A stretch of DNA of 64,000 nucleotides. It comes from Oscillospiraceae bacterium. GTDB taxonomy: Bacteria > Bacillota > Clostridia > Oscillospirales > Ruminococcaceae. Below the pieces are notes generated by a model. That model did no database searches. It was not told the DNA's origin and was given only the letters and a program-made list of their open reading frames with translations. Below, one piece after another: positions 10,470-29,564 of the stretch. Positions within the stretch are counted from its first letter, which is position 1. Every line of letters starts with the position of its first letter. A program made the position numbers and the translations under genes. Location of the stretch: assembly GCA_009784825.1 (NCBI GenBank), contig WQXO01000008.1, forward strand, positions 1 through 64,000, given 5' to 3'.

Positions 10470-11396
10470 TTATTTTTTAGACATCAATTCAACAACGGCT
10501 CTTACGCAGTCACTCAGCTGTGACCTTGAGAATTGTGCATCTGCTCCTGCGTTTTCACCCTTCTGGCGAACATTTTCATGTATCAGTGACGAGAACATGA
10601 CAATCGGAGTTGCCGAAAGCTCTTTGTCTGAGCGGATTAACCGAACCAATGTATGCCCGTCCATCTGCGGCATTTCTATGTCACTGATTACGGCGGCTAA
10701 GTTGCGGGACAGGTTAGGCAAACCCTTAAGCGATGTGATATACGCCCACGCCTCTTTCCCGTTATAGAATTGTGCGATGTTTTTGAACCCGGTCTTTGTC
10801 AAAGCGTCAAACATAACTTTATTGAGGAACACCGAGTCTTCTACAATCACAACACGTCTGGTATAGTCGAAGTTGTCGGGGGATTCTATCTCCTCGACAT
10901 TTCCGATTTCAAATTCCTTACCTGCGTTCATATCACACACGATTTTCTCGAAATCGAGAATCATAATGATTTTGTCATCGATTTTCGCAACTCCGGTGGC
11001 AAGGCTATCCTCGGAATTACCGCTGACTGCAGGCGGTTTCTCCACTGCAGACCAACTCAGGCGTTGGATTCCGCTTACGTTGGTAACATTAAATGCAATG
11101 CTGACTTGGTCGAAATCGCAGACAACGAGAAGAGTTCTCTCGTTATCGTCCGGTTTCGACAGTTCAAGAACCTTATGCAAATCAACGACTGTAACTAATT
11201 TATCTCTGTGCATGAACACACCCTCAACTGCGGGAGGGGCACTGGGAACATGCGTAACGTCACAGTGAATAATAATTTCGCTGACCTTTGCAATGTTGAT
11301 GCCGAAGTGCTCGGTGCCTACTAAAAACTCAAGCAGTTCAAGCTCGCTGGTGCCTACTTCTGCCTCTGTGCCTAAATTATCTAAGCTCATATTCAT
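10470..11396 (-). CDS. cheV: Chemotaxis protein CheV (CheW-REC)
   Basis: 308 aa. An N-terminal CheW coupling domain (about residues 15-165, EFLVGTEHFGINIAKVSEII and RDKLVTVVDLHKVL) is followed by a receiver (about 180-305) with VIVEDS, phospho-acceptor ISDIEMPQMDG and a degenerate SLIHENVRQKGENAGADAQ segment characteristic of CheV. It couples chemoreceptors to CheA and tunes adaptation by phosphorylation. It has its own consensus promoter at the 3' end of the diguanylate cyclase gene upstream, so it can be expressed separately from the hydrogenase-kinase operon. No other che or flagellar gene lies in the window. Confidence 0.95.
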   Translation of the reverse strand: MNMSLDNLGTEAEVGTSELELLEFLVGTEHFGINIAKVSEIIIHCDVTHVPSAPPAVEGVFMHRDKLVTVVDLHKVLELSKPDDNERTLLVVCDFDQVSIAFNVTNVSGIQRLSWSAVEKPPAVSGNSEDSLATGVAKIDDKIIMILDFEKIVCDMNAGKEFEIGNVEEIESPDNFDYTRRVVIVEDSVFLNKVMFDALTKTGFKNIAQFYNGKEAWAYITSLKGLPNLSRNLAAVISDIEMPQMDGHTLVRLIRSDKELSATPIVMFSSLIHENVRQKGENAGADAQFSRSQLSDCVRAVVELMSKK

Positions 11397-11526: not shown

Positions 11527-13278
11527 TTAAATATTCTGACAGCTATATCTGTTACGCCCGTCCTTTTTGGAATTATACAGCATATCGTCTGCTTTTTTAA
11601 TAAAATCCTCGGCTGTGTGGGTGTGCAGTGCAATTCCTGTTGCCGCTCCTATGGAAATTGTGACATGGTCTGCCGCCTCGTTCGCCTCATGCGGAATATT
11701 ACACTCACGGATGCTTAAGAGCAGCTTTTCTGCAACATTAAGTGAACCGGTTTCATCCGTATTGGGTAAGACAACCACAAACTCCTCACCGCCATACCGA
11801 GCAACGAAGTCATCCGCTCTGATTATGCATTTTTTGAGAGCGTCGGCAACCTTCCTCAAGCAGTCATCACCTGCACTGTGTCCGTATGTGTCATTGTATT
11901 TTTTAAAGAAGTCAATGTCTATCATCATCAAACTCAGAACACTTCCGGAACGTGACAGGGATTTTATAATGCGGGTAATCGATTCGTCGAAGAAACGCCT
12001 GTTATATAAACCTGTCAACCCGTCTAAGAAGATTTTCTTGTTTTCGATTTCGAGAGACCGGATTTTAGTTAAATCCTTCATGACTATTCCGAGGTTGTTT
12101 TTCCCGGTTTGGAAGAGGGATATGAATAATATACGCTTTTCGCCGTTTTTGTGGAATATGTCCGCTTCAAAGAAAGCCGCTCCGTTCCATAAAGCATCAG
12201 AAATGTAGGTTTCTTTTATGTCTTCAAGCATTTCCTCCCCGAATATGATGGAGAGTCCGTTTGCGATAATATCATTCTTTTTATAACCCGTAACAGCGGT
12301 TACTGCCGGATTAATGTATTCTGCTACAGCGTCAGCCGTTATAGATAAAACAGGGTAGGGGGCGTTTTCAACAATCGAGAATTGACGCTCCATTGTCTCC
12401 CTCTCAAAAACCCCCGAAAACACATCTGATACAATAAGTGCGAGGTTTATTTCGCCATCGCTCCATTCACTGCCATCATCCTCCCGAGAGAAATCGAGGA
12501 CGGCACACAGCTTGCCTTTTATAAAAATCGGTGTTGTTATAAAATTGCAAAGGTTTTTACGCTGCGGTTTCATTTCCTCTTTGAAGAACGGGTTGTTCGA
12601 GCTTAGGCATAAATCACCCTTATTAACCGAAAGCAGGTTTTTCAGAATTGAATCCATGGTATCGTTCAACACAAATTCGTCGCCGATATGCGATTGGGTC
12701 GGGTGTTTCGGGCTGTGCCATTCACTGCGACAGACAAATGAATTACTGTCGTCATCAAATCTGTACAGCAACAACTGTGACAAATCCATGAATTCGCCGA
12801 TTAGTTTTAAGGTTTGTGCTAATAATGTGTCAATAAAATCATCTGACAGGAAGACATGCGACACACTCGTGACTAATGCTTGTTGTCTTTGCTGTTCGAG
12901 AAGTTTGATTTGGTTATTGACCCTCAGCTTAACGACAGAAGAATTAAACGGTTTGTGTATATAATCTGCCGCACCTAACACCAATCCGCGTTCCTCGGAT
13001 TCGCTGCTGTCGAGTCCGGTTATGAAAATAACGGGAATGTTCTGCGTTCTTTCGGATTTTTTCAATGCGGAAATTACTGCAAATCCGTCCATGTCGGGCA
13101 TAATAATGTCGAGCAGAATGACATCGGGAATAAATTCCTCTGCTGTTTCGACGGCGTCTTGTCCGTCGCTCGAAACATAAATAGTATATTGAGAATCCAA
13201 TATTGACCTTAAAGCACTTATATTGGCTCTCTCGTCATCAACAATTAAAACGCTGTTTCTTTTTACATAACTCATCAT
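11527..13278 (-). CDS. Response regulator REC-GAF-PAS-GGDEF diguanylate cyclase
   Basis: 583 aa. The receiver spans about 7-125 with acceptor D57 (LLDIIMPDMDG) and a KPF lysine loop. A GAF-like region (about 140-290) contains FITTPIFIKGKLCAVLDFS. PAS spans about 297-412 (VLSITADAVAEYINPAV). GGDEF spans about 425-583 with an intact GGEEF active site (496-500). An inhibitory I-site RADD starts at 487, five residues before GGEEF, so c-di-GMP feedback is expected. The enzyme makes c-di-GMP from GTP. It is third in an operon after a hydrogenase-kinase and a hemerythrin (21-bp gap), making its receiver the obvious candidate phosphate acceptor for that kinase's Hpt domain. Confidence 0.93.
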   Translation of the reverse strand: MMSYVKRNSVLIVDDERANISALRSILDSQYTIYVSSDGQDAVETAEEFIPDVILLDIIMPDMDGFAVISALKKSERTQNIPVIFITGLDSSESEERGLVLGAADYIHKPFNSSVVKLRVNNQIKLLEQQRQQALVTSVSHVFLSDDFIDTLLAQTLKLIGEFMDLSQLLLYRFDDDSNSFVCRSEWHSPKHPTQSHIGDEFVLNDTMDSILKNLLSVNKGDLCLSSNNPFFKEEMKPQRKNLCNFITTPIFIKGKLCAVLDFSREDDGSEWSDGEINLALIVSDVFSGVFERETMERQFSIVENAPYPVLSITADAVAEYINPAVTAVTGYKKNDIIANGLSIIFGEEMLEDIKETYISDALWNGAAFFEADIFHKNGEKRILFISLFQTGKNNLGIVMKDLTKIRSLEIENKKIFLDGLTGLYNRRFFDESITRIIKSLSRSGSVLSLMMIDIDFFKKYNDTYGHSAGDDCLRKVADALKKCIIRADDFVARYGGEEFVVVLPNTDETGSLNVAEKLLLSIRECNIPHEANEAADHVTISIGAATGIALHTHTAEDFIKKADDMLYNSKKDGRNRYSCQNI

Positions 13279-13299: not shown

Positions 13300-13680
13300 T
13301 CACTTAATTTTCTTGTCGGCATCGACAACATGGTATAACAGCCATGCCACAAGTGCATCAACGAATTCCCTTACATCGCTTTCGGCAAAGTTTGAAGCCT
13401 CCATCTTTTTTTCATGCTTCAACACGGTTTGAACAAACTTGTCGTGTAGTTTTTTGTGTGCGTCATAATCCTTATAGTTTATGGATATTTGATACGCCTC
13501 TTCGTCTGCGAAATGCTTAACGGCATAATCTTTCAGGAAAAGGATTGTTGAAATACACTTGTCCTTATACTTCATACCGTTATTGCGAACCTCGCTCAAT
13601 AATTCCTCGGTTTTGTCAAACAATTCCTTATGCTGTCGGTCAATAACCTCCACCCCGATACAAAACGAATCCTTCCACAT
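13300..13680 (-). CDS. Bacteriohemerythrin (di-iron O2-binding protein)
   Basis: 126 aa starting at MWKDSF, the usual family start; the ATG at 13680 lies 4 bp after the kinase stop. All di-iron ligands are present: H17, H56 and E60 (HFADE), H75 and H79 (HKKLH), H117 and D122 (HVVDAD). Members reversibly bind O2 and act in O2 delivery, scavenging or sensing in anaerobes and microaerophiles. It is encoded between a hydrogenase-type kinase and a diguanylate cyclase, so an O2-sensing or O2-protecting role for the H-cluster protein is plausible. A longer in-frame start would overlap the upstream gene and is less likely. Confidence 0.94.
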   Translation of the reverse strand: MWKDSFCIGVEVIDRQHKELFDKTEELLSEVRNNGMKYKDKCISTILFLKDYAVKHFADEEAYQISINYKDYDAHKKLHDKFVQTVLKHEKKMEASNFAESDVREFVDALVAWLLYHVVDADKKIK

Positions 13681-13684
13681 AATT

Positions 13685-16663
13685 CTAATCAATCTCCAAT
13701 TCTTTTTTAAGTTTATACAGTTCTTCAATCGCTAATTTTAGTTTGAACTTTTCAATAAGCTCTACAAGCTCACCCGCTCCGGGGATTGTGACAATGTCAT
13801 CAAGCAAATCCTCACATTCGGGACTTTTGTTTTTCAATAGGGGTTCTAATTTTGAAATAATTTCTATAATCTTTTCCTTGTCGGTGGTTACAATTGTGCT
13901 TTTGTTTTCGTGTTCAACCAACAGCGGTTCAAATTTGTGAAGGACGATTTTTATATCGTTTTCAAGATTAATCAACAGTTTTTCGTTTATTGTGTTTTCT
14001 TCTTTTGAAAGCATGGCTTCTACTGCCGCCGCCGATTCCTGCAATCGCTTTTCATGGATTTGCCCTGCATTGCTTTTTAAAGAGTGTGCAATTCTAAATG
14101 AGGTTTTTATATCACCCGCCTCAATCGCTTCAATAATATCGTTGTATGAGTTTTGATTGTTTTTGACGAATATAGTTCGCAGTCTTCGTAATATCTTTTC
14201 CTCCTCCGCAGATTGTTGAGGTTTTTCAATGGTTGAAAAGCTTTCAGGCGGTATATATTTAATCAAGCATTTCCATAATTCATGTGCCTTAAACGGTTTA
14301 CCGAGAGTGTCTTTCATGCCGCTAAGTCTGTAAAGCTCTAAATCGTTTGACATTATATTTGCGGTTACTGCTACAATCGGTACATTTACCTTAAGCTTTG
14401 CAATTCTTGCTGCGGCTTCCAACCCGTCCATCACAGGCATATGAATATCCATCAGAATTAAATCGAACATTTTATCGCCGCTCTTAACACGCTCCTCAAC
14501 AAGCTCGACCCCCTCTAACCCGTTATCGGCTATCACTGTGTTTAATCCCACTCTCGATAAATGGTCACAGATAACCTGCTGGTTAAGACCGTTGTCCTCG
14601 CATACCAAGACCTCGCCCTTGAAATTGGGCTTTTCAAATTCGTTAATTGTAATGTGGGGGGACAAAGCAGATATGTCATCGATTAATTCAAAGGTCAATT
14701 CAAAACTGAATTTACTGCCTACACCGACTGTGCTTTCCACACGCATTGTTCCGCCCATAATTTCAATGATGTTTTTGGTGATTGCCAGCCCTAACCCCGT
14801 ACCACCGAATTTCCTTGTAATGCTGTCGTCCGCTTGTACAAAGGGTTCAAAAATTTTCGATATTTGTTCGGGAGTCATGCCTATGCCGCTGTCTTTAATT
14901 TCAAAGCTCATTGTAACAGATTCACTGTCGGCACGAACAATGCTTGCCATCAGTTTAATAATACCGACATTTGTAAACTTCACGGCATTAGAAAGAAGGT
15001 TGATAATAATTTGACGCAATCTCACCGGGTCACCGAGCAGCTTTTTCCCGAATGAGGGCTCGGCATAACAATAAAGCGATACGCCTTTTTGTTCGGCTTT
15101 CGGTATAATAACCGATTGGCAATGGGCAAATATGTCCGGTAAATCAAATGGAATATTCTCTAATTTGATTTTCCCCGATTCGATTTTTGAAACGTCTAAT
15201 ATATCGTTGATTATGTTGAGCAGCCATTCAGCACTGCCGTGAATATTATCAAGATATTTCCTTGTTTTGGGCGGCATTTCATCTTCTAAAGCAAGCTCGG
15301 AAAAGCCGATAATGCTGTTCATGGGAGTCCTTATTTCATGGCTCATGTTCGCTAAAAAGAGTGATTTGGCTTTGTTTGCGGCTTCGGCTTTATCATGCTC
15401 TAATTTAGCATTTTCCATAGACTTTACAATGCAGTTGTCCGGTATATTGATGTTTAATGCGATTTTCCTCGCCATGTCATGACAAGTCTTAGAGCCGCAA
15501 GCGAAACAATCCACATGCTGTTTTTCATAATTAGTTTTCCCCAATGCCTTAAATGCATTGTTTATGTCCGCTTCTGTTAATTTCTTTGAAGCTGTAGTAA
15601 TCGCACGATACTTCCTTGTGAACTTCAGAATGTCAAGAGTTTCATCATAGGTTTTATACATCTTTTGATAATGCTCTTTCTTCTGCTCCTCACGCACTTT
15701 ACGCTCTGCGTTTTTCATCTTCTTCCTGACTTCAAACAAGCACCTGTCATGTAAAGAGGCAGTGCCGATGTTGCACCCCTCCGCACAGCTGAGAACATCG
15801 AATATATCCGGTAGAAATTCCTCGGGAGTTTGAGCATATTTGTTTAACTTTTCGTATACTTCCTCTCCCTCTGCTTTAGTTATATGAAGGCTCTTCCCCA
15901 TTAAGTATTCTATGTTTTCTTTAAATCCTCCCGGCATAGGGAACAATGAACCTAAACCGCAATCGGGATGGTCAAAGTCGGTTTCCTCCTCCGGGAGTGA
16001 AATGTTGTGTTCTTTAATATGTTCAATCAGTTTTGTAAACGTGACATTATAATCGGATAGCTTTGTTTCCTCGAATTCATTTGTTTTAGCCATGCACGGA
16101 GACAGAGCGGCAATACGGTCGTTTATGCCTTGATGTTCTTTCATGTAAATACTGGTGCAAGCCATGGGGCTGTGGATGGGGGACAGCCTGTAAAGTAAAT
16201 CGTGGCGGTATAATTCACAATATGTCACGATTACCGGACACGGTTGTGTTATAATCGGGGTATGGGGGCTTTTTTCAATATGTTTGATGTGTGCCCAAAT
16301 GCATATGTCGGCACCCAATGAAACGTCATAGATTTTATTTACTCCAAGCTGTTTCAAATATGTAAACAGGCGTTTATACTCAGGCATATTTGTTTTGATT
16401 GCGGGTGCGGCAATCAATGATACCGGTGTTCCTTTTGACAAATCGTCAAACAAACGCTCTGTATCATCTGTGAAATACCTTGCATCGTGTTTACATGCGG
16501 AAACACATAAACCGCAGGCGATGCATTTTTCATGGTCTATTTTCACTTTAATATTGCCGGATTCGTCCTGATATGTTATGTTGGCTGTTTCCATTGAGCA
16601 TTCTCTGACACAACGGTTACATCCGACACATAAGTCAAGTTGTTCTTTTATTACCTCAATCAT
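13685..16663 (-). CDS. [FeFe]-hydrogenase-like sensor fused to hybrid histidine kinase (copy 1)
   Basis: 992 aa from ATG at 16663, preceded by AAAGGAA. In order: two [4Fe-4S] ferredoxin clusters (C12/15/18/22 and C47/50/53/57); a hydrogenase large-subunit domain (about 80-300) with H-cluster ligands C142, C190, C293 and C297 in PCP, SPCMAK and CAEGC motifs; an RnfB-type FeS motif (C386, C389, C394, C411); HisKA with H442 ([11 protein letters not shown]); HATPase (about 540-660); REC with D739; Hpt with H860 (AHSLKSNAG). The proton-relay Cys of catalytic hydrogenases (CpI C299) is replaced by P141, as expected for a sensor. No membrane segment. Probably senses H2 or redox state and starts a phosphorelay. 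Operon with hemerythrin and REC-GGDEF. Confidence 0.92.
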
Positions 16664-16905: not shown

Positions 16906-18711
16906 ATGGCAAGACCGGAAGAGCATCTCTTTAAAAAAGAAGAGGACATAACAATTATAAATGTAGAGGAAGAGATAATAAATAAAGAAGACGAGTTTCT
17001 TCAGCCGATTGAAGAAGACGAAGACCAATTTATTTATGAGAGGAACGAATATGATTTTAAGCTTGAAGAGCTTGAAGAAGAAAAGAAAGAAGTTGTTGTT
17101 TCGCAGAAGCCTGTAACAAAGCTTAGTCTTGAGCAGGAAGAACAGCAATTACAAAAAACCATACAAAAAATAACCTATAAAATGCAGCAGCCTTACGGTG
17201 ACATCAGCGTTGACCCTCACCCATATGAAAAGGTTAAAGAACCGGATATGTCAAACAAGAAAAAGAGAAGGCGTGCTAAAAAAGCCAAATCACTCCATCC
17301 GAAATTGGGTGATGAGAGAACCATGGTTATACATGACAAGCTCAAGCAGACCAAGGTCATTGACGGGGGCGGCTCGTTATTGCCGTATTTCCTTGATAGT
17401 TATAAGACTGATTCAAAGGGCAGGATTCTCGAAGAAAGCAGGGAGGCTAAATTATCCGCTGAAGAACAATTAAAGAATGCCAAAAGCAGTCCCAAAAACA
17501 TGGAAATCCTCGTTCACGGTATCATTGATGATTTAATGAAAGTCAATTATGACCCGCAGGTGTTCCATGATAAGAATTCTTTCTTTAAAAACTTCGACAA
17601 ATTTAGGAAAAATGCCGAACAGCTTGAGCGTTTTGAGGCGATGATTAAAGAAACCGGGGCAAAAGAACTCCTAAGCAAATACCCCAAAACCCTCATGGAA
17701 ATTGATTATATCCAAAAAAGAGCCAAGCCTTATTCCGACTGTTACAAGGCGTGTATACAGGAATTCGGAATTACGGCAGACGGAAAGGCTACGAGCAACC
17801 TCAAGGTTATAGAAATTGATGACCGGAAAAAGTATTCCTTGAGGAGTTATAAATGCGATGTTTTCGGGGAAGAGCAGGAATTAGCAGAAAAGAAGTATTT
17901 GGAACATGAAATGAACAAGAGCACCCGAGTATCTAAGTATGAGAATTTGAAAACGCAGGTTGAAACAAATTATAAAACTGTTGAAGAAAGCCTTAAAAAA
18001 TTAAAAACCGAGGAGGAGAAAAATCAGTTCTTAACAGAATTAAAGGAAACAGATAATCAAACATATATCGATTATTTCACTTTCCAAAAGACTACTCGCG
18101 TTGACTACAGCATTGAGGGCAGCGAAAATAAATTACCCGAACCAATATTCCGCAGAGGTGTAACGGGCATTGACAAATACAAGGTATCGTGGAGCGAGGA
18201 AGAGTATAAGGAAATATACTATAACCTCGGTGCTACTGTTGAAACCGCCGGCTCATTAGAGGAGGCTCAAAAACGCAATATCGCCGGTTTGAAAAAGCTG
18301 AAGGAAGCCATAAAAACACTTTATATGAATGCTGTCGAAAGATACGGCACCTCCATTGAAAATATGGATATAATGACCGCTATCGAAAATTATCCCGAGA
18401 TGATGAGCAACGTAGATACAAATCAAGTTGATGAAAGGTTAACAAGGCTTATCCCCGAAATTTGGGATTATGAAAGTGAGGATGACCAAATCCTCAAAAA
18501 TCTGATTAATTATCATGCGTATATGGCTGAATGTATTCCCGCATATATACAGATGATGGACGAGTCTACCACTCCTTATGACGTTCATCGTAACTTGAGA
18601 AATATCAGACAATCAGACAAAACGTTTTCAGAGTCTGCGGCGTTTTTAGAAGAAAAAGGAATTCTTAAATATAAAACCCCCATATTTGAAAAGAAAGTGG
18701 GTGACAAATAA
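16906..18711 (+). CDS. Large charged coiled-coil-like protein, unknown
   Basis: 601 aa with a good ribosome site. The first 70 residues are very rich in Glu/Asp; residues about 105-122 are a basic patch ([11 protein letters not shown]). The remainder is mostly helical with Lys/Glu heptad-like stretches such as [30 protein letters not shown]. No signal peptide, membrane helix, P-loop or metal motif was seen. The stop overlaps the ATG of the GNAT-like gene by one base. I do not recognise a family; it could be structural or a secreted effector lacking a classical signal, but nothing in the sequence decides this. Confidence 0.7.
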
Positions 18712-21715: not shown

Positions 21716-23902
21716 TTAAAAGCTGTTCAGCTTATTTAAATATGCAGTTATCGCATTTTCTGCTTCTTCAAAATCGCTGTGCAATATATGCTCCTTCACA
21801 CTGTCTAATAATTCTTTAGTCTGTGGCGTGCATTTCTTAATATCGGCGATTATTTCTAATGCGTCTTTTCTGTTATAATCGACGCATTTTTCTCGAATCG
21901 CCGTTAACTCATTTCGCATACTCTCGACATTGTCTGCACAGATAATCTCTATGTCTGTGCCGTAACCGGAGTTATACTTTTCTAACAGTGTACACAAGGA
22001 AGCCAAAAATCCCGGGACAGAAGCTTTTATTAAATCAGTATTATTATCTCTCCCCGCTTTTTCTAAAACGCCGGCTTCTGCAGAAAGTGATGCTTCACCT
22101 ATAATTAAAAGAGAACTTTTCATGCCGTGAACTGCGACGGTGAATTCCTGTAAATCTTCTGCAGTGTCAAAACGATTAATCGTAATGACGGCTTTTTTTG
22201 CATCTCTGATAAAGGATTCTAACAGCATAGAATCTATGGGTTCGTTTTCGGTAATCTCCGGTAACGGTTCGTTATTATCTGTCGGTGGTGAGTGATTTGA
22301 ATCCCGAACAAACATATTCAAAATTGAATTCAACCTTTGCACATCAATGGGCTTAGATATAAAATCATCAAAACCGCTTTTCAAAAATATATCTGCTTGA
22401 CCCGATACAGCGTTAGCGGTTAATGCGACGATTGCTTTTTTATATCCAGATTCACGAAGAATTTTTGTCGCTTCCATACCGTCCATAACAGGCATCATAT
22501 GGTCCATGAAAATTACATCATACACTTTCCCTTCGTGTATTTTGTCAATGGCTTCCTGCCCGTTTATAGCTGTTTCAATTTGCAATCTATAAGGTCTCAT
22601 AAGCCTTTCTGCAACAAACAGGTTTGTTTCTGTGTCGTCCACAATCAACACCTTTCCATAGGGCATAGGTTCACGAATGGTTTCGATTTTTTTCCTGTGT
22701 GTGATGTTGCTTTTACGAAAGTTTTGTAAATTGTCTGCAATTTCCTTGCCTAACATATCCCCCTGTACTTGAGCTTGCGGAAGCCTAACCGTTACTGTTG
22801 TGCCTACTCCCGGTTCGCTTTCTACATCAATTTCACCGTTCATAAGGTTTACTAACCTCTGTAAAATAGATAAACCTAATCCCGTACCTTCAATGTTGCG
22901 TGCAGCTCCCTCGTTAAAGCGTGAATACTCATCGAATAATTTGTTCAATTGTTCTTTCGTCATGCCGTGTCCCGTGTCTTGAATGCACATGATAAAAATT
23001 TGAGGTGCAGGCTCATAGTTAAAGGATAGCGTTACCTTGCCCGAATCGGTATATTTAAAAGCGTTAGAAAGCAGATTGTTCAGTATTTGTTTAATACGAA
23101 GCTCATCACCCATAAGCGTTACAGGAATGTTTTCGTCAACATGAAGTTCAAATTTTATCGGTCTGTTCCCAATACGCATCATGTTCAAATGAACAGCATC
23201 ATTAATCATGCTTGCAACTTTATATGGGGTGGTTATAATGTCTAACTTACCCGCTTCGATTTTTGAAAAGTCCAATATATCGTTAATAATTCCGAGGAGC
23301 ATTTCACTGGAGGCGTAGATTTTTTCGAGTCCGTCTTCGATTTCCGTAGGGAGCTGTTCAAGCTGCAGCAATATATCAGTAATCCCCATAATAGCGTTCA
23401 TGGGGGTGCGGATTTCATGGCTCATATTTGCTAAAAAGGTTGATTTTGATTTACTGGCTGCTTTTGCAGTTTCAGCGGCGGTTTCAGCGGTGGCAGTCGC
23501 ACTTTGTAATTCACGCTGAAGATTAATAACCTGCAGTTGTTGTCCTACTCTGAGTTTAACAACAGCGGCACTGAAAGGCTTACGTATATAATCAACTGCA
23601 CCGGCGGCTAACCCCTCACTCTCGTCACATTCGGCACTTAACCCCGTTATAAAAATGACCGGAATCGAATCAGTCTTTTCGGAGCTTTTGAGCTCACCGA
23701 GGACTCTGAAACCGTCCATATCAGGCATAATAACATCTAATAATATAAGGTCAGGGAAATACTGCTCCGCTTTTTCTAAGGCGGAAATCCCGTCCATAGC
23801 TGTCAGAATACTATATTCCGAGCCTAATATATGATACAGCTCCATGAGATTAGACGAATCATCGTCAACAATAAGTATGCTGTTCTTTGGCTTGTCCTGC
23901 AT
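21716..23902 (-). CDS. REC-histidine kinase-REC-Hpt hybrid phosphorelay protein
   Basis: 728 aa, soluble. Receiver 1 spans about 8-125 with D56. A short Ala/Thr/Glu helix (TATAETAAETAKAAS, about 135-150) leads to HisKA with H162 ([11 protein letters not shown]), then HATPase (N-box about 277-285, G-boxes around DTGHG and GTGLGL), receiver 2 (about 416-530) with D467, and Hpt with H592 (VHGMKSS). Having a receiver at the N-terminus rather than a sensor domain, it probably takes phosphate from one of the two kinases encoded immediately upstream (11-bp gap) and relays it. Third gene of the operon starting at 29564. Confidence 0.93.
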   Translation of the reverse strand: MQDKPKNSILIVDDDSSNLMELYHILGSEYSILTAMDGISALEKAEQYFPDLILLDVIMPDMDGFRVLGELKSSEKTDSIPVIFITGLSAECDESEGLAAGAVDYIRKPFSAAVVKLRVGQQLQVINLQRELQSATATAETAAETAKAASKSKSTFLANMSHEIRTPMNAIMGITDILLQLEQLPTEIEDGLEKIYASSEMLLGIINDILDFSKIEAGKLDIITTPYKVASMINDAVHLNMMRIGNRPIKFELHVDENIPVTLMGDELRIKQILNNLLSNAFKYTDSGKVTLSFNYEPAPQIFIMCIQDTGHGMTKEQLNKLFDEYSRFNEGAARNIEGTGLGLSILQRLVNLMNGEIDVESEPGVGTTVTVRLPQAQVQGDMLGKEIADNLQNFRKSNITHRKKIETIREPMPYGKVLIVDDTETNLFVAERLMRPYRLQIETAINGQEAIDKIHEGKVYDVIFMDHMMPVMDGMEATKILRESGYKKAIVALTANAVSGQADIFLKSGFDDFISKPIDVQRLNSILNMFVRDSNHSPPTDNNEPLPEITENEPIDSMLLESFIRDAKKAVITINRFDTAEDLQEFTVAVHGMKSSLLIIGEASLSAEAGVLEKAGRDNNTDLIKASVPGFLASLCTLLEKYNSGYGTDIEIICADNVESMRNELTAIREKCVDYNRKDALEIIADIKKCTPQTKELLDSVKEHILHSDFEEAENAITAYLNKLNSF

Positions 23903-23913
23903 TTTTTACCCCC

Positions 23914-26910
23914 CTATTTCGTCATTAATTCGTTGAATATCTCCAAAGCCGATTTAAAATCAAATCTCTCAATTTTTTCAATCAATTCTTCGCTTCCCTC
24001 AATCGCTTGAAGCTCACCAATATATTTTAAGCATTCAGGGTCGCCTTTTTTTAGTAAAAGTTCAAATTCGTCGGGTAATTTCCCGCTTGCTACGGTGTGT
24101 GGTTTTGTTTGACTGACAAGAGGTTTCAGTTCGGCAAGCACAGCAGTTAATTCTCTTTCTAATATCTCCATTAGCTCAATGGAGGCATTTTTATTTTCCC
24201 TAAGCTTATGTTCAACATCTTCGGCGGCTTTTTGTAAATCGGTTCTGCCGAGCTGTCCCGCATTGCTTCGCAGGGTATGTGCAATCCTGTGTGCGAGTTT
24301 CGTATTTCCCTCATTTAACGCATTTTTTATTTCCTCATATTTACCGCTGTTATTTAAAACAAAATTGTTGATAAGCTTTCGCCTCAGTTCGTCCTCGCCT
24401 TGTACATGTGCGGCAGTGTCCTCCGTTTTCCAGCTTACGGGTGTGAAAAACTTCATTAAACAGTGCCACAGCTCTTGAGTTGTGAACGGTTTTCCCACAT
24501 AATCAACCATGCCGGTTTTCTTATACAGTTCACGGTCATGCGACATGATGTTCGCTGTTAGTGCGACTATAGGAATCCCTGCGTTCAATTCTATAATTTT
24601 CTCCGCCGCCTCAAGCCCGTCCATAATCGGCATATGCATATCCATGAAAATTAAGTCGAATTGCTTCTCGCCGTTTTTCAGACGTTCCTCAACTAAGTCT
24701 ACACCAATTTTTCCGTTTTCGGCTACAACGGTTGTTAACCCCACTTTTGAAAGATGTTCACAAATGAGCTGTTGATTAAAAGTATTGTCCTCGCACAGAA
24801 GTATTTCACCTTCAAATGTAGGCTTCTTGAATTCGTCCAGCACAATTCGGTTTTCAATCGGCTCGCTTTCACATGCATCAATCGTATCAAATGTAAGCTC
24901 AAAACTAAATTTACTGCCGACGCCCGGTGTGCTTGCGACAACAATTTCTCCCCCCATACCCTTGATTAAATAATTGGTTATAGCAAGACCGAGACCGGTT
25001 CCGCCATATTTGCGTGTTGTCCCCGATTCCGCTTGTGTGAACGGGTCAAAAATCCGTTCAATTTGCTCATCAGTCATACCGATTCCGCTGTCCCTCACCT
25101 CAAAGCTCATGGTAATGGTGTCTTCGGTGGTTTCTTTAATCGCGGCATGTAACTTAATAATGCCCGAGGCGGTAAATTTCACTGCGTTAGACAGCAGATT
25201 TGTAAGCACCTGACGCAATCTGACCGGGTCGCCTAAGGGTCTTCTGTTGAGAGAGGGTTCTGCATAAAAATGCAAAGCAAGTCCTTTTTCTTCGGCGTCA
25301 GCGGCAATGACAGAACGGCAGGCGATAAAAAGCTCGTGCATATTAAAGGGGATATTCTCAAATTGTAATTTCCCCGATTCGATTTTTGATATGTCTAAAA
25401 TATTATTTATAATATGTAAAAGCCATCTGGAATTCTCTAAAATATTGTCAAGATAACCCTTGGTTTTATCGGGCAGATTTTCATCAAGTGCTAATTCCGA
25501 AAATCCGATTATACTGTTCATCGGTGTGCGGATTTCATGGCTCATGTTAGCCAAAAAGTCGCTTTTCGCCTTATTTGCTTCCACGGCAATTTCAGATTTA
25601 CGCATTTCCTCAAGTAGCTTAATATGCTCTTTCATGCTGAGTTCTTCCGCTTCACGCATGGCTTCCATATCCCGGATGATACAGCTCATGGGAATATTAA
25701 CCTTAAACGCCAACCGCCTCGCCATACCGAGGCACGAGTCTGAACCACAGGCACCGCAGTCCATGTTCTGCTTTTCGTGTGTGTCCTTGTTCAACAGTGT
25801 AAATGCCGCCTGTATATCCTCCTCGGTGATTTTAGTCAGCTTTGTATCAATCGGACGATATTTTCTGATAAAATGCGAAAAAGTCAGCGTATCGTCATAC
25901 TCTTTGTACAACGCCTTATAAAAATCATCGTCATACTTTTGCGTCAGCGACCTTCTGCGTTTGTTCATCGCTGTTTCAATTTCAAGCACGTTTTGTTTAT
26001 GCGAACAGCCCGTACCCACATTGCAACCGTCTGTACAGTTCAACAGGTCATACATATCCGGCAGAAATTCCTCAGGCGTAACTGCGTAAGTATCCAACTT
26101 TTTATACACAGAAGGCCCCTCTGCTTTATACACGCTTATGTGTTTTCCCGCAATGAGTTCGATGTTCTCTTTCAACCCGCCCGGGACAGGGAACAGAGAA
26201 CCCAATGCACCGCTGCGGTCAAAATCAGTTTCTTCTTCGGGGAGTTCAATCTTGTTTTCTTTTAAATGCTCAAGCAGCTTTTGAAAAGTAATATTATAAT
26301 GGGGGATTCCAACCGCCGCATATTCGTCTGCCTTAGCCACACATGGCGAAAGCACAGCAATTCTATCACTCACATTCTGATAATCCTTCAAGTAAATCGC
26401 CGTGCAGACAATCGGGCTGTGTACGGGCGAGAGATGCTTGAGTAAATCGTGACGAAACATTTCACAGTATGAAACGATTGCAGGGCATGATTGATTTATG
26501 ATTTTCACCGAATCCGGCTGCTGTATATATTTAATAGTTGCCCATATGCAAATATCTGCTCCGAATGAAACATCGTATATTTTCCGAACACCGATTTTTT
26601 TAAGATAAGTAAAAAGTCTTTTATATTCGGATATGTTTATTTGAACTGAGGGTGCGGCAATAAGCGATATGGGAAGCCCGGCTTTTAAGTCATCGAAAAA
26701 ACGCTTGGTATCATCAGCAAAATATCTCGCATTATGCTTGCAAGCATAAACACAAATCCCGCAGACCACACATTGAGTATAATCCACTTTAACTTTTATG
26801 CTGTTGCTTTCATCAAGATATGTAACATTTGCAGTTTCCATCGGACAGTTTCTGACACATCTGTTGCAACCGGTACATTCGTCAAGATTTGTCCTTACCA
26901 AGTCTCTCAT
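23914..26910 (-). CDS. [FeFe]-hydrogenase-like sensor fused to hybrid histidine kinase (copy 2)
   Basis: 998 aa, paralogue of the protein at 13685-16663 with the same domain order. Ferredoxin clusters C12/15/18/22 and C47/50/53/57; H-cluster ligands C142, C190, C292 and C296 in SCP, SPCVAK and CTDGC motifs; FeS motif C385, C388, C393, C410; a coiled linker; HisKA H458; HATPase; REC ([12 protein letters not shown]); Hpt (AHTLRSNAG). The proton-relay cysteine position is S141 here, versus Pro in copy 1. It overlaps the upstream Cache-kinase gene by 4 bp (ATGA), so the two are translationally coupled and may form mixed complexes. Predicted cytoplasmic H2 or redox sensor. Confidence 0.92.
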
Positions 26911-29564
26911 TTAACATCTCCTTTTTCAAGAATCTCCAAAGCCGACTTAAAATCAAATCTTTCCATTTTTTGTATAAGTTCCCCGCTTCCCTCGATTAAC
27001 TTAAGTTCGTCCGAAAATTTTAAACATGCGGGGTCACCTTTTTTCAATAAGGTTTTTAATTCCTCTGCTAATTCACTCGGAATTGTAAAATCCTGTGCAG
27101 TTATTGAAACGGGCAATTCAGGTTCGCTCATCAAGAGGGAGAACTCCGATAATACTGTGCCCAGCTCTTTTTCGAGCATATTGAGCATTTCGGGAGAAGC
27201 TTCATTTTTGCCGTCTCTCAGTTTAAACTCAATGTCCTCTGCGATTTTCTGCAAAGTCGGTTTATTGAGCTGCCCTGCATTACTACGCAAGGTGTGTATA
27301 AGCCGATGTGCGAGTTTAAAGTCTTCAGTATTGATTGCCGTCGTTATTCTTGCGAATATATCTTTATTGTTATTCACGAAATTATTAATTAATTTTTGCC
27401 GCAGTTCGTTATCGGCTTTCTCTTGACAAGTAAGAGCTTCTTTCTGCCAAGTTACAGGCTCAAAATGTTTCAGAAGACACTGCCACAATTCCTGCGAGGT
27501 GAAAGGTTTACCCACATAATCAACCATTCCGGCTTTTTTATAAATCTCACGGTCATGTGACATGACGTTTGCCGTCAACGCTACAATAGGAATCCCTGTA
27601 TCCAATTCAAGGATTTTTTCACAAGCTTCAAGCCCGTCCATAACCGGCATATGCATGTCCATGAAAATTAAATCGAATTGCTTTTCACCCTTTTTCAGAC
27701 GTTTTGAAACCATGTCTAAACCGACCTTGCCGTTTTCGGCTACAACTGTTTTAAGCCCCACTCGAGTGAGATGCTCACAAATGACTTGTTGGTTTAAAAC
27801 ATTGTCTTCACAAAGAAGTATTTCGCCTTCAAATGTCGGTTTTTCAATCGCACTGTGTGTCACGATTTTTTCAACAATGTCATCGTCATTTAATTCGATT
27901 ACATCGAAAGTCAGCTCAAAACTGAATTTACTGCCAACCTCGGGCATGCTTTCCACAATGAGACACCCGCCCATGAGTTCTAATATATTCTTGGTTATCG
28001 CAAGCCCGAGACCTGTTCCGCCGTATTTACGTGTCGTACCTGATTCCGCCTGCGTAAACGGGTCAAAGACACGCTCAATCTGTTCAGGTGTCATACCTAT
28101 TCCGCTGTCCTTCACCTCAAATGATATAGTAATTGTGTCCTCGGTGGTTTCTATAATCGCCGCATACAATTTAATAATTCCGGTGTTTGTGAATTTCACG
28201 GCATTAGACAGCAGATTAGTAAGCACCTGACGCAGTCTGACAGGGTCGCCGAGCGGTAGTTTCCCTGTGGACGGTTCTGCGTAAAAATGCAGTAAAAGCC
28301 CTTTATCTTCAGCCTTTTGCATAACCATTGTGCGACAGCTGATAAAAAGCTCAGGCAGACTGAACGGGATTTTTTCCAATTCCATTTTACCCGATTCAAT
28401 TTTTGATATATCTAAAATATCGTTCACAACCTGTAAAAGCCACTGCGAATTATCGACGATGTTAGTCAGATAATCCTTTGTCTTAGGTGAAACATTATCA
28501 TCTAAAGCCAACTCGGAAAACCCGACTATGCTGTTCATGGGTGTTCGGATTTCATGGCTCATATTAGCTAAAAAAACAGATTTTGCTTTACTGGCAATTT
28601 GAGCAGTATCACGTGCTTTGCGTACCTCGTCCATCATATCATTCAATTGTTTTCCGATGATGCCCGATATTCCCCTCGCTATTATGATGCAAATAAAGAG
28701 TACCGCAAGCAGTATTAACATACCGCTAAACATAAAAAACCATGTTTTAGCCGTGTCTTCTTCTGTATAATAACCGATAAACAACATGCCCACTATTTCT
28801 TTGTCTGCACCTTCAAGCGGGGCATATTTTGCCAAAACATTTCTGCCGAATAATTCCATTTTATTTATGTATGTTTCTCCGGCAAGAACCTTTTCACTTA
28901 TATATTCAGGTGCATTTGTCCCCAAGGCATAATCGCCGCTTTGATTTTTAATTGTTGTTGAAACACGCTCATCGTTTGAAAACACAGTTACCTCACATCC
29001 GATAAGCTCGCTTAAATTGTCGGCGAAGTCTTGATTATCCAACCTAAACCCTAAGGTTACGGCACCCACAATGTTCATGTTTTCGTCATATACCGGAGCT
29101 CCGGCAGATATTCCGAGGCGTATTGTGACCCCTTGCATGATAAACACATCATTCTCACCGTTTAACGCTTGTTTTATATGCGGTAAATGTGCAATATTAT
29201 CATTGAACAGTTCCGGCTCATGTGTTCTGAATATAACCCTGCCCTCATTGTCAAGCACTGTGCAATAATCAATCTGCGTGGTCGCATTCATGGTGATTGC
29301 CATGCTTACTATTGTGTCACGGTCGTCATTTATCAGGGCTTGAACCAGCTCCGGATTATTCGCCATTCCGCCGACAGCAAGGCGTGCCCGTTCTTTTAAA
29401 TCCGTGATTGTATTCTCGGCCACACTCATGGCAGTGTTGACTTTGTCATCCATAGTATTATTCAGCTCTCTGTTAAACAGCACTATGGAAGAAAGGAGTA
29501 CGGCAATTCCGCACCCAATCGTGAGTGAAATCATTGGAATAAGGATTCTCTTACCGATGCTCAT
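26907..29564 (-). CDS. Cache-domain membrane hybrid histidine kinase
   Basis: 885 aa. Two membrane helices (about 10-30 and 276-296) flank an extracytoplasmic Cache-type sensor (about 35-270; [21 protein letters not shown] and [21 protein letters not shown]). HisKA H337, HATPase, REC ([12 protein letters not shown]) and Hpt (IHTLRSNAG) follow. From the kinase core onward it is closely similar to the downstream hydrogenase-kinase, including the FDFKSALEI tail, so the two share a duplicated output module with different sensors. Cache domains usually bind small organic ligands. A TTGACA/TGTAGA promoter-like pair lies at about 29592-29620. Confidence 0.93.

Follow-up and report, generated by a model that had tools for sequence, protein, structure and literature searches.

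A hybrid histidine kinase with a sensory hydrogenase-like input module in an Oscillospiraceae bacterium

Introduction

Can one soluble protein read molecular hydrogen (H2), or the redox balance of the cell's ferredoxin, and hand the result on as phosphate? The question is raised by a gene, here called P1, in a 64,000-nucleotide stretch of DNA (the window; positions 1 to 64,000 of contig WQXO01000008.1, GenBank assembly GCA_009784825.1, from an Oscillospiraceae bacterium), whose product joins a domain of the [FeFe]-hydrogenase type (H-domain) to a histidine kinase. For the [FeFe]-hydrogenases of groups C and D, sensing is termed putative and the output is inferred from a fused PAS domain or from neighbouring genes, according to the available text of two reports (PMC8163306, PMC5037454). 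In P1 the sensor and the output share one soluble polypeptide with a measurable autophosphorylation, so that H2 and redox sensing become directly testable against each other. The reading favoured here, at slightly better than even odds (roughly 0.55), is a cytosolic H2/redox sensor hybrid kinase with a swapped, group C/D-like H-domain, relaying probably to a REC-GGDEF protein. Loci, genomes and contigs are cited by our working identifiers (prefixes L, G and C, respectively).

Results

Domain organization of P1

The P1 open reading frame encodes 992 residues from an ATG start, with no internal stop. In the Pfam search a Fer4 dicluster domain (residues 12–61) is followed by Fe_hyd_lg_C (81–300, E-value 3.9e-27), HisKA (432–497, 6e-22), HATPase_c (544–658, 4.2e-27), Response_reg (685–798, 7.6e-19) and Hpt (828–902, 3.4e-7). 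The residues expected of a hybrid histidine kinase with Hpt are all present and in order: the kinase core is complete, with H442 (SHEIRTP), the N box at 555, G1 at 591 and G2 at 620, and the phosphorelay residues are kept, namely D739 of the receiver (REC) domain (LMDIHMP) and H860 of Hpt (AHSLKSN). The fusion in one polypeptide of two ferredoxin clusters, an H-domain, an iron-sulfur (FeS) motif and HisKA, HATPase, REC and Hpt, as claimed in the original prediction, is borne out by the frame and by Pfam, and an assembly or frame artefact is ruled out by the open frame and the intact motifs. In respect to the RnfB-type FeS motif named in the same prediction, the cysteines 386, 389, 394 and 411 are in place with the spacing Cx2Cx4Cx16C reported for group C/D enzymes, while the PF04060 match (residues 384–412) lies under the Pfam cut-off (19 versus 23 bits).

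The peak hydropathy over 19 residues is 1.24, and a membrane segment is therefore not expected. Across the sensor the nonsynonymous divergence (dN) is 0.19–0.35, with synonymous sites saturated (four pairwise comparisons). To judge from its frame, residues and divergence, P1 is a real sensor kinase under constraint, with an input derived from a hydrogenase. None of the NCBIfam equivalogs for BarA, TorS and ArcB was matched over its cut-off (the best, PRK11107.1, at 348.6 versus 890 bits).

The H-domain and its ligands

The four H-cluster cysteines of the L1, L2 and L3 motifs are found in P1 as C142, C190, C293 and C297, correctly numbered by the original prediction. In the alignment of the sensor profile with four HydA proteins (hhalign, probability 99.6%, E-value 8.6e-24) all four fall on HydA motif positions. 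In the phmmer comparison with solved hydrogenases, C142 and C190 lie within the significant stretch, and the stretch with C293 and C297 does not reach significance alone. We take all four to be ligands of the cubane. K193 is the lysine of the L2 motif MPCxxK and matches K358 of the hydrogenase CpI, which contacts a cyanide of the [2Fe] site. At the positions of CpI M353 and M497, methionines that border the diiron site, P1 carries S188 and L291, and at that of the proton-transfer cysteine (CpI C299) a proline (TQPCP). The cysteines of the N-terminal clusters are 12/15/18/22 and 47/50/53/57; the cluster cysteines are retained 16 of 16 both in P1 and in its paralogue P2, described below.

These residues are conserved well beyond the window. 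Among 47 sensor modules of the subfamily (27 rows of at least 269 bits with the model of A1, a profile built from five sensors, P1 and P2 included, and 20 rows of a second alignment, counted without one HydA row and without the reference row, which repeats P1), the four ligand cysteines and Leu291 are present in all 47, Lys193 in 46 and Ser188 in 43; one module has tyrosine for one ferredoxin cysteine (L089) and another is cut at the N-terminus (L060). Cysteine stands at all four ligand places in 39 of 40 aligned rows, the exception being the organism's own HydA with serine at the first. The AlphaFold2 model on the five-sequence alignment A1, which is shallow, had a mean predicted local distance difference test (pLDDT) score of 43 and was set aside.

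The own HydA (L001 829–2583, contig C6) carries this serine, at the CpI C300 ligand position, within the L1 motif TSCSPGW; the idea that the enzyme is dead on that account was dropped, the motif being shared by the 30 best-scoring other HydA loci of the family and by the solved HydA1 7q4v. A fourth H-domain protein of the genome (L003 1276–2520, contig C5; 414 residues) adjoins a HATPase_c_2 gene and has glutamine in place of the L2-motif lysine.

Paralogue P2 and exchange of the sensor

The window holds a second protein of the same domain order, P2 (Table 1), of which the original prediction made no mention. In its kinase core P2 shares 67% identity with the adjoining dCache kinase versus 54% with P1. 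P1 and its closest relative, L007, share 73% identity in the sensors and 31% in the kinase cores, and P1 and L157, a locus from another phylum, 64 and 35%, respectively. The sensors do not share their nearest relatives with the kinase cores; the sensor module has therefore been swapped. The gene pair 23914–26910 and 26907–29564 looks like a tandem duplication with sensor exchange. On these identities, the order H-domain, HisKA, HATPase, REC and Hpt probably arose more than once, by placement of the same sensor on different kinases.

Distribution and outputs of the module

A scan of genome contigs with a single sequence gave three loci, and the broader reach was obtained with A1. Matches were found in 49 of 391 genomes of the class (E-value 1e-30), in 37 of 398 genomes of the phylum (1e-60; 4 of the 37 were already in the class set) and in 27 of 167 genomes of the other phylum, that of G537. 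L157, from this other phylum, shows the same HisKA-HATPase-REC-Hpt order behind the sensor (Hpt match with E-value 1.3e-13); it runs to the contig end and its C-terminus is possibly cut. An architecture unique to P1 is ruled out by P2 and L157, and published group C enzymes linked or fused to histidine kinases also show that it does not stand alone.

The outputs, annotated for only part of the matched loci, are varied. On a tree of 44 rows they comprise 23 methyl-accepting chemotaxis protein (MCP) domains, 12 histidine kinases, 5 sigma-54 activators (2 in distant rows), 2 HATPase-CheX, 1 GGDEF and 1 SpoIIE, with a minimum of 8 output changes. A clade of 10 with support 100/99, made of 9 kinases and 1 GGDEF fusion, takes in the window sensors and is nested among MCP fusions; in L009 a direct fusion joins the sensor to GGDEF. 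Taken together, these fusions would make the module a plug-in sensor of general use; it was found with seven kinds of output, or six if simple and hybrid kinases are merged.

Several individual fusions were recorded alongside. L151 and L152 combine H-domain, HATPase and CheX in one protein of ~1130 residues, and the same sensor is fused to a SpoIIE phosphatase domain at L160 2606–4732. H-domains fused to sigma-54 activators occur at L150, L155, L156, L094, L095 and L172 6875–9121, the last gene sitting inside a row of hyd genes.

Gene neighbourhood and probable output

P1 and the hemerythrin, REC-GGDEF and CheV-like genes that follow it all run in one direction (Table 1). The His/Glu/Asp ligand set of the hemerythrin is seemingly present on reading by eye. 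Cyclic di-GMP (c-di-GMP) is probably the output of P1, as suggested by gene order and fusion, and at L157 a REC-GGDEF gene is likewise found two genes off. At L079, L146 and L008 a GGDEF gene beside the fusion was not noticed in the gene lists. Output to chemotaxis or to gene expression through another response regulator, instead of c-di-GMP, is somewhat improbable: it gains from the CheV-like gene in the same gene run, which may or may not share a transcript with the REC-GGDEF gene, and from the MCP signalling domains fused to 23 of the 44 tree sensors, but the nearest REC-bearing gene encodes a diguanylate cyclase, with the second case at L157. On the other side of P1, a divergent open reading frame of 601 residues (16906–18711) has no Pfam match at E-value 0.001.

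Table 1. Features of the window around P1 and P2.
Feature	Position	Strand	Basis	Remark
CheV-like (CheW + REC)	10470..11396	-	Pfam	130 bases after the REC-GGDEF gene
REC-GAF-PAS-GGDEF	11527..13278	-	Pfam	21 bases after hemerythrin; candidate target of phosphate from P1
Bacteriohemerythrin	13300..13680	-	NCBIfam NF033749, over cut-off	4 bases after P1
P1: 2x[4Fe-4S] ferredoxin, H-domain, FeS (residues 1–420); HisKA-HATPase-REC-Hpt (432–902)	13685..16663	-	Open reading frame, Pfam	
P1 sensor module	15401..16663	-	Alignments	C142/C190/C293/C297, K193, S188, L291; FeS motif 386/389/394/411
REC-HisKA-HATPase-REC hybrid kinase	21716..23902	-	Pfam	11 bases after P2
P2: P1 paralogue, identical domain order	23914..26910	-	Open reading frame, Pfam	998 residues
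dCache-HisKA-HATPase-REC-Hpt kinase	26907..29564	-	Pfam	4-base overlap with P2

Maturases and the state of the H-cluster

HydG was found over its cut-off in 48 of 61 tested carrier genomes: 15 of 24 in a first set (21 of the 49 class genomes, the best and three distant ones, with the genomes of L007–L009) and 33 of 37 in a second (20 of 33 new phylum genomes and 17 of 26 new genomes of the other phylum). In 7 of these 17 the HydG match starts 447–493 bases after the sensor domain; five of the seven regions, chosen for this nearness, were fetched, and the sensor-MCP gene directly precedes hydG in 5 of 5. In L172 the genes hydA, sensor-MCP, sensor-sigma-54, hydF, hydG and hydE form one row on one strand, and in L172 and L173 sensor-MCP and hyd genes lie within ~10 kb without the former touching hydG. 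Since HydG is common in carriers and sensor genes stand beside hyd genes, the sensor family is, by this association, tied to H-cluster assembly.

Several observations weigh against the favoured reading. The genes hydE, hydF and hydG, on whose presence in the genome the original prediction leaned, were not found in the assembly (2.18 Mb, 32 contigs, completeness 98.74%), where a gap is possible: HydE and HydG gave no match, and HydF none over its cut-off (best 84.8 versus 325.55 bits). The secA locus of the genome continues without hydEGF. HydG was not found over its cut-off in 13 of the 61 carriers, or in 9 of the 38 with a stated completeness of at least 90%, one of which (G463) is a single contig; among the 48 HydG carriers, the G537 gene has an internal stop and those of G390 and G915 are in pieces or partial. 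In G944, the genome that carries L157, the hydG locus (L174) holds hydFGE with no sensor gene nearby. The case for the REC-GGDEF protein as target consists of gene order and fusion, and the hemerythrin adjoining P1 could mean that the relevant signal is O2 or NO, not H2. The window genome belongs to the carrier minority without visible maturases.

Would a gap in the assembly explain this? HydG, usual among carriers, is present in the two further genomes sampled from the genus (G015, G132), and the hydE, hydG and hydF genes of G132 form one cluster of ~4 kb beside secA, a length that one gap could cover. Pieces of the 20 kb round this cluster match four contigs of the window genome (C14, C9, C11, C4), and in the 19 kb read only secA is common to C14 and the hydEGF region of G132; synteny was rejected as proof of hydEGF loss, the absence being shown at the secA locus and not genome-wide. 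A complete H-cluster in an H2 sensor, with hydEGF merely hidden by a gap, is a tentative explanation that falls short of an even chance, as it has to contend with the high completeness in 32 contigs and with the layout of G015, where hydF was not found in the 17 kb read round hydG (the rest of that genome was not searched for hydF) and one gap would not suffice for all three genes. It has to contend also with the family of the window organism, in which HydG is over cut-off in 62 of 148 genomes and PF02906 is matched in 144 of 148 (hand count from two lists): 83 of the 144 are without HydG over cut-off, G004, G020, G051 and G113 in 2–3 contigs among them, and so the absence in the window genome need not be a gap. 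In these 83 genomes HydA homologues are retained in the absence of visible maturases.

An H-domain that holds only the [4Fe-4S] cubane, without the [2Fe] subcluster, and reports ferredoxin redox or oxidative damage instead of H2, would fit both the missing maturases and the 13 carriers without HydG, whose aligned sensors retain the cysteines. HydG is absent from 5 of 8 genomes with hybrid-kinase fusions of the window clade versus 8 of the remaining 53 carriers (p 0.008 by Fisher's test; the grouping is post hoc, assigns the GGDEF carrier of this clade, which has HydG, to the remaining carriers and ignores kinship and completeness), and from 5 of 11 versus 8 of 50 when all kinase fusions are taken (p 0.046). 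Nevertheless, such a sensor is unlikely, given that 46 of 47 modules retain K193, that L007 sits in a genome with HydG and that the HydG-less genomes G149 (73%), G644 (81%) and G679 (79%) are incomplete and that of L008 is without stated completeness. Equally doubtful is the wider proposal of the hydrogenase fold as a maturase-free FeS redox sensor, in which a cubane alone, here and in the other HydG-less carriers, would let the output read ferredoxin redox and a full H-cluster in the relatives would read H2. Carriers with and without HydG constitute a natural experiment on the need for the [2Fe] part.

A degenerate H-domain, kept as a structural relic that merely dimerises or gates the kinase, is very improbable, for although CpI C299 is replaced by proline and H-cluster motifs are barely detectable in Hydrogenedentota group C1 proteins (available text of PMC11406978), both copies retain 16 of 16 cluster cysteines under amino-acid constraint, and the absence of C299 is normal in group C/D sensors (available text of PMC8163306).

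Discussion

In general, H2 sensing appears plausible for the family, and is unproven and with one strike against it in the window organism. The H2/redox-to-phosphate transducer of the original prediction stands in its frame, that is, a sensory-type H-domain fused to a full phosphorelay, with ligand cysteines and K193 kept, HydG in most carriers and the sensor beside hydG in some, while HydE, HydG and HydF were not found in its own genome. Because the maturases were not found, P1 should be classed as a kinase whose H-domain is group C/D-like and which is expected to act like a sensory hydrogenase, and not as an established sensory hydrogenase.

The architecture, the intact catalytic and ligand residues, the gene order and the module swapping are read from the sequence itself; for the ligand sensed, the direction of the response, the composition of the clusters in this organism and the partner of Hpt, we infer the following scheme. 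As its input, an already existing hybrid kinase would have acquired, by a swap, an H-domain module resembling those of group C/D [FeFe]-hydrogenases. Built as far as the cell can build it, the cluster of this H-domain would shift its state with H2 and/or with the redox balance of the cell's ferredoxin, and electrons would pass between it and the two N-terminal [4Fe-4S] clusters. The motif of the C-terminal FeS cluster lies ~30 residues ahead of the phosphorylated histidine, and neither PAS nor HAMP intervenes; this cluster would relay the change to the HisKA coiled coil. Phosphate would then pass from H442 to D739 and H860, and from there probably to the REC-GGDEF protein two genes downstream, with the result that H2/redox would set c-di-GMP.

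Group C/D sensory hydrogenases linked to kinases are already published and, in one report, fused to them, as far as the available texts go. HydDB divides group C, all putative, into histidine kinase-linked C1, chemotactic C2 and phosphatase-linked C3 enzymes (available text of PMC5037454). The P1 module is like group C, for which a sensory role with output through histidine kinases, chemotaxis proteins and phosphatases is proposed (available text of PMC5037454); the tree places the P1 sensor among mostly MCP-fused sensors, a position that is not a computed HydDB class, and P1 differs in the absence of PAS and the presence of REC and Hpt. In the group C3 protein BfuT of Hydrogenedentota a histidine kinase domain is fused to the H-domain, both in a single polypeptide as in P1; REC and Hpt, carried by P1, are unmentioned for BfuT in the available text (PMC11406978), and BfuT genes are nearly all beside group A3 hydrogenase genes, unlike P1. 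Within the open-licence literature, as far as its texts were available, fusions of the H-domain to REC and Hpt, GGDEF, a sigma-54 activator or CheX are not described. The Thermotoga maritima enzyme Tm HydS (group C, M2f) shares with P1 a sensory-type H-domain and the C-terminal cluster motif, but M2f has PAS, and M353 and M497 are Gly and Ser, not Ser and Leu as in P1 (available text of PMC8163306).

The closest resemblance in residues is to Tam HydS, a characterised enzyme of Thermoanaerobacter mathranii (group D, M2e), in which M353 is replaced by Ser and M497 by Leu and C299 is absent, M497 being poorly conserved across groups C and D (available text of PMC8163306). P1 likewise lacks C299 and PAS and has Ser188 and Leu291, a likeness by residues and domains and not by tree or HydDB class. 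Both proteins have two N-terminal [4Fe-4S] motifs, the H-domain and a C-terminal Cx2Cx4Cx16C motif (available text of PMC8163306), but in P1 this module is part of the same polypeptide as a complete phosphorelay.
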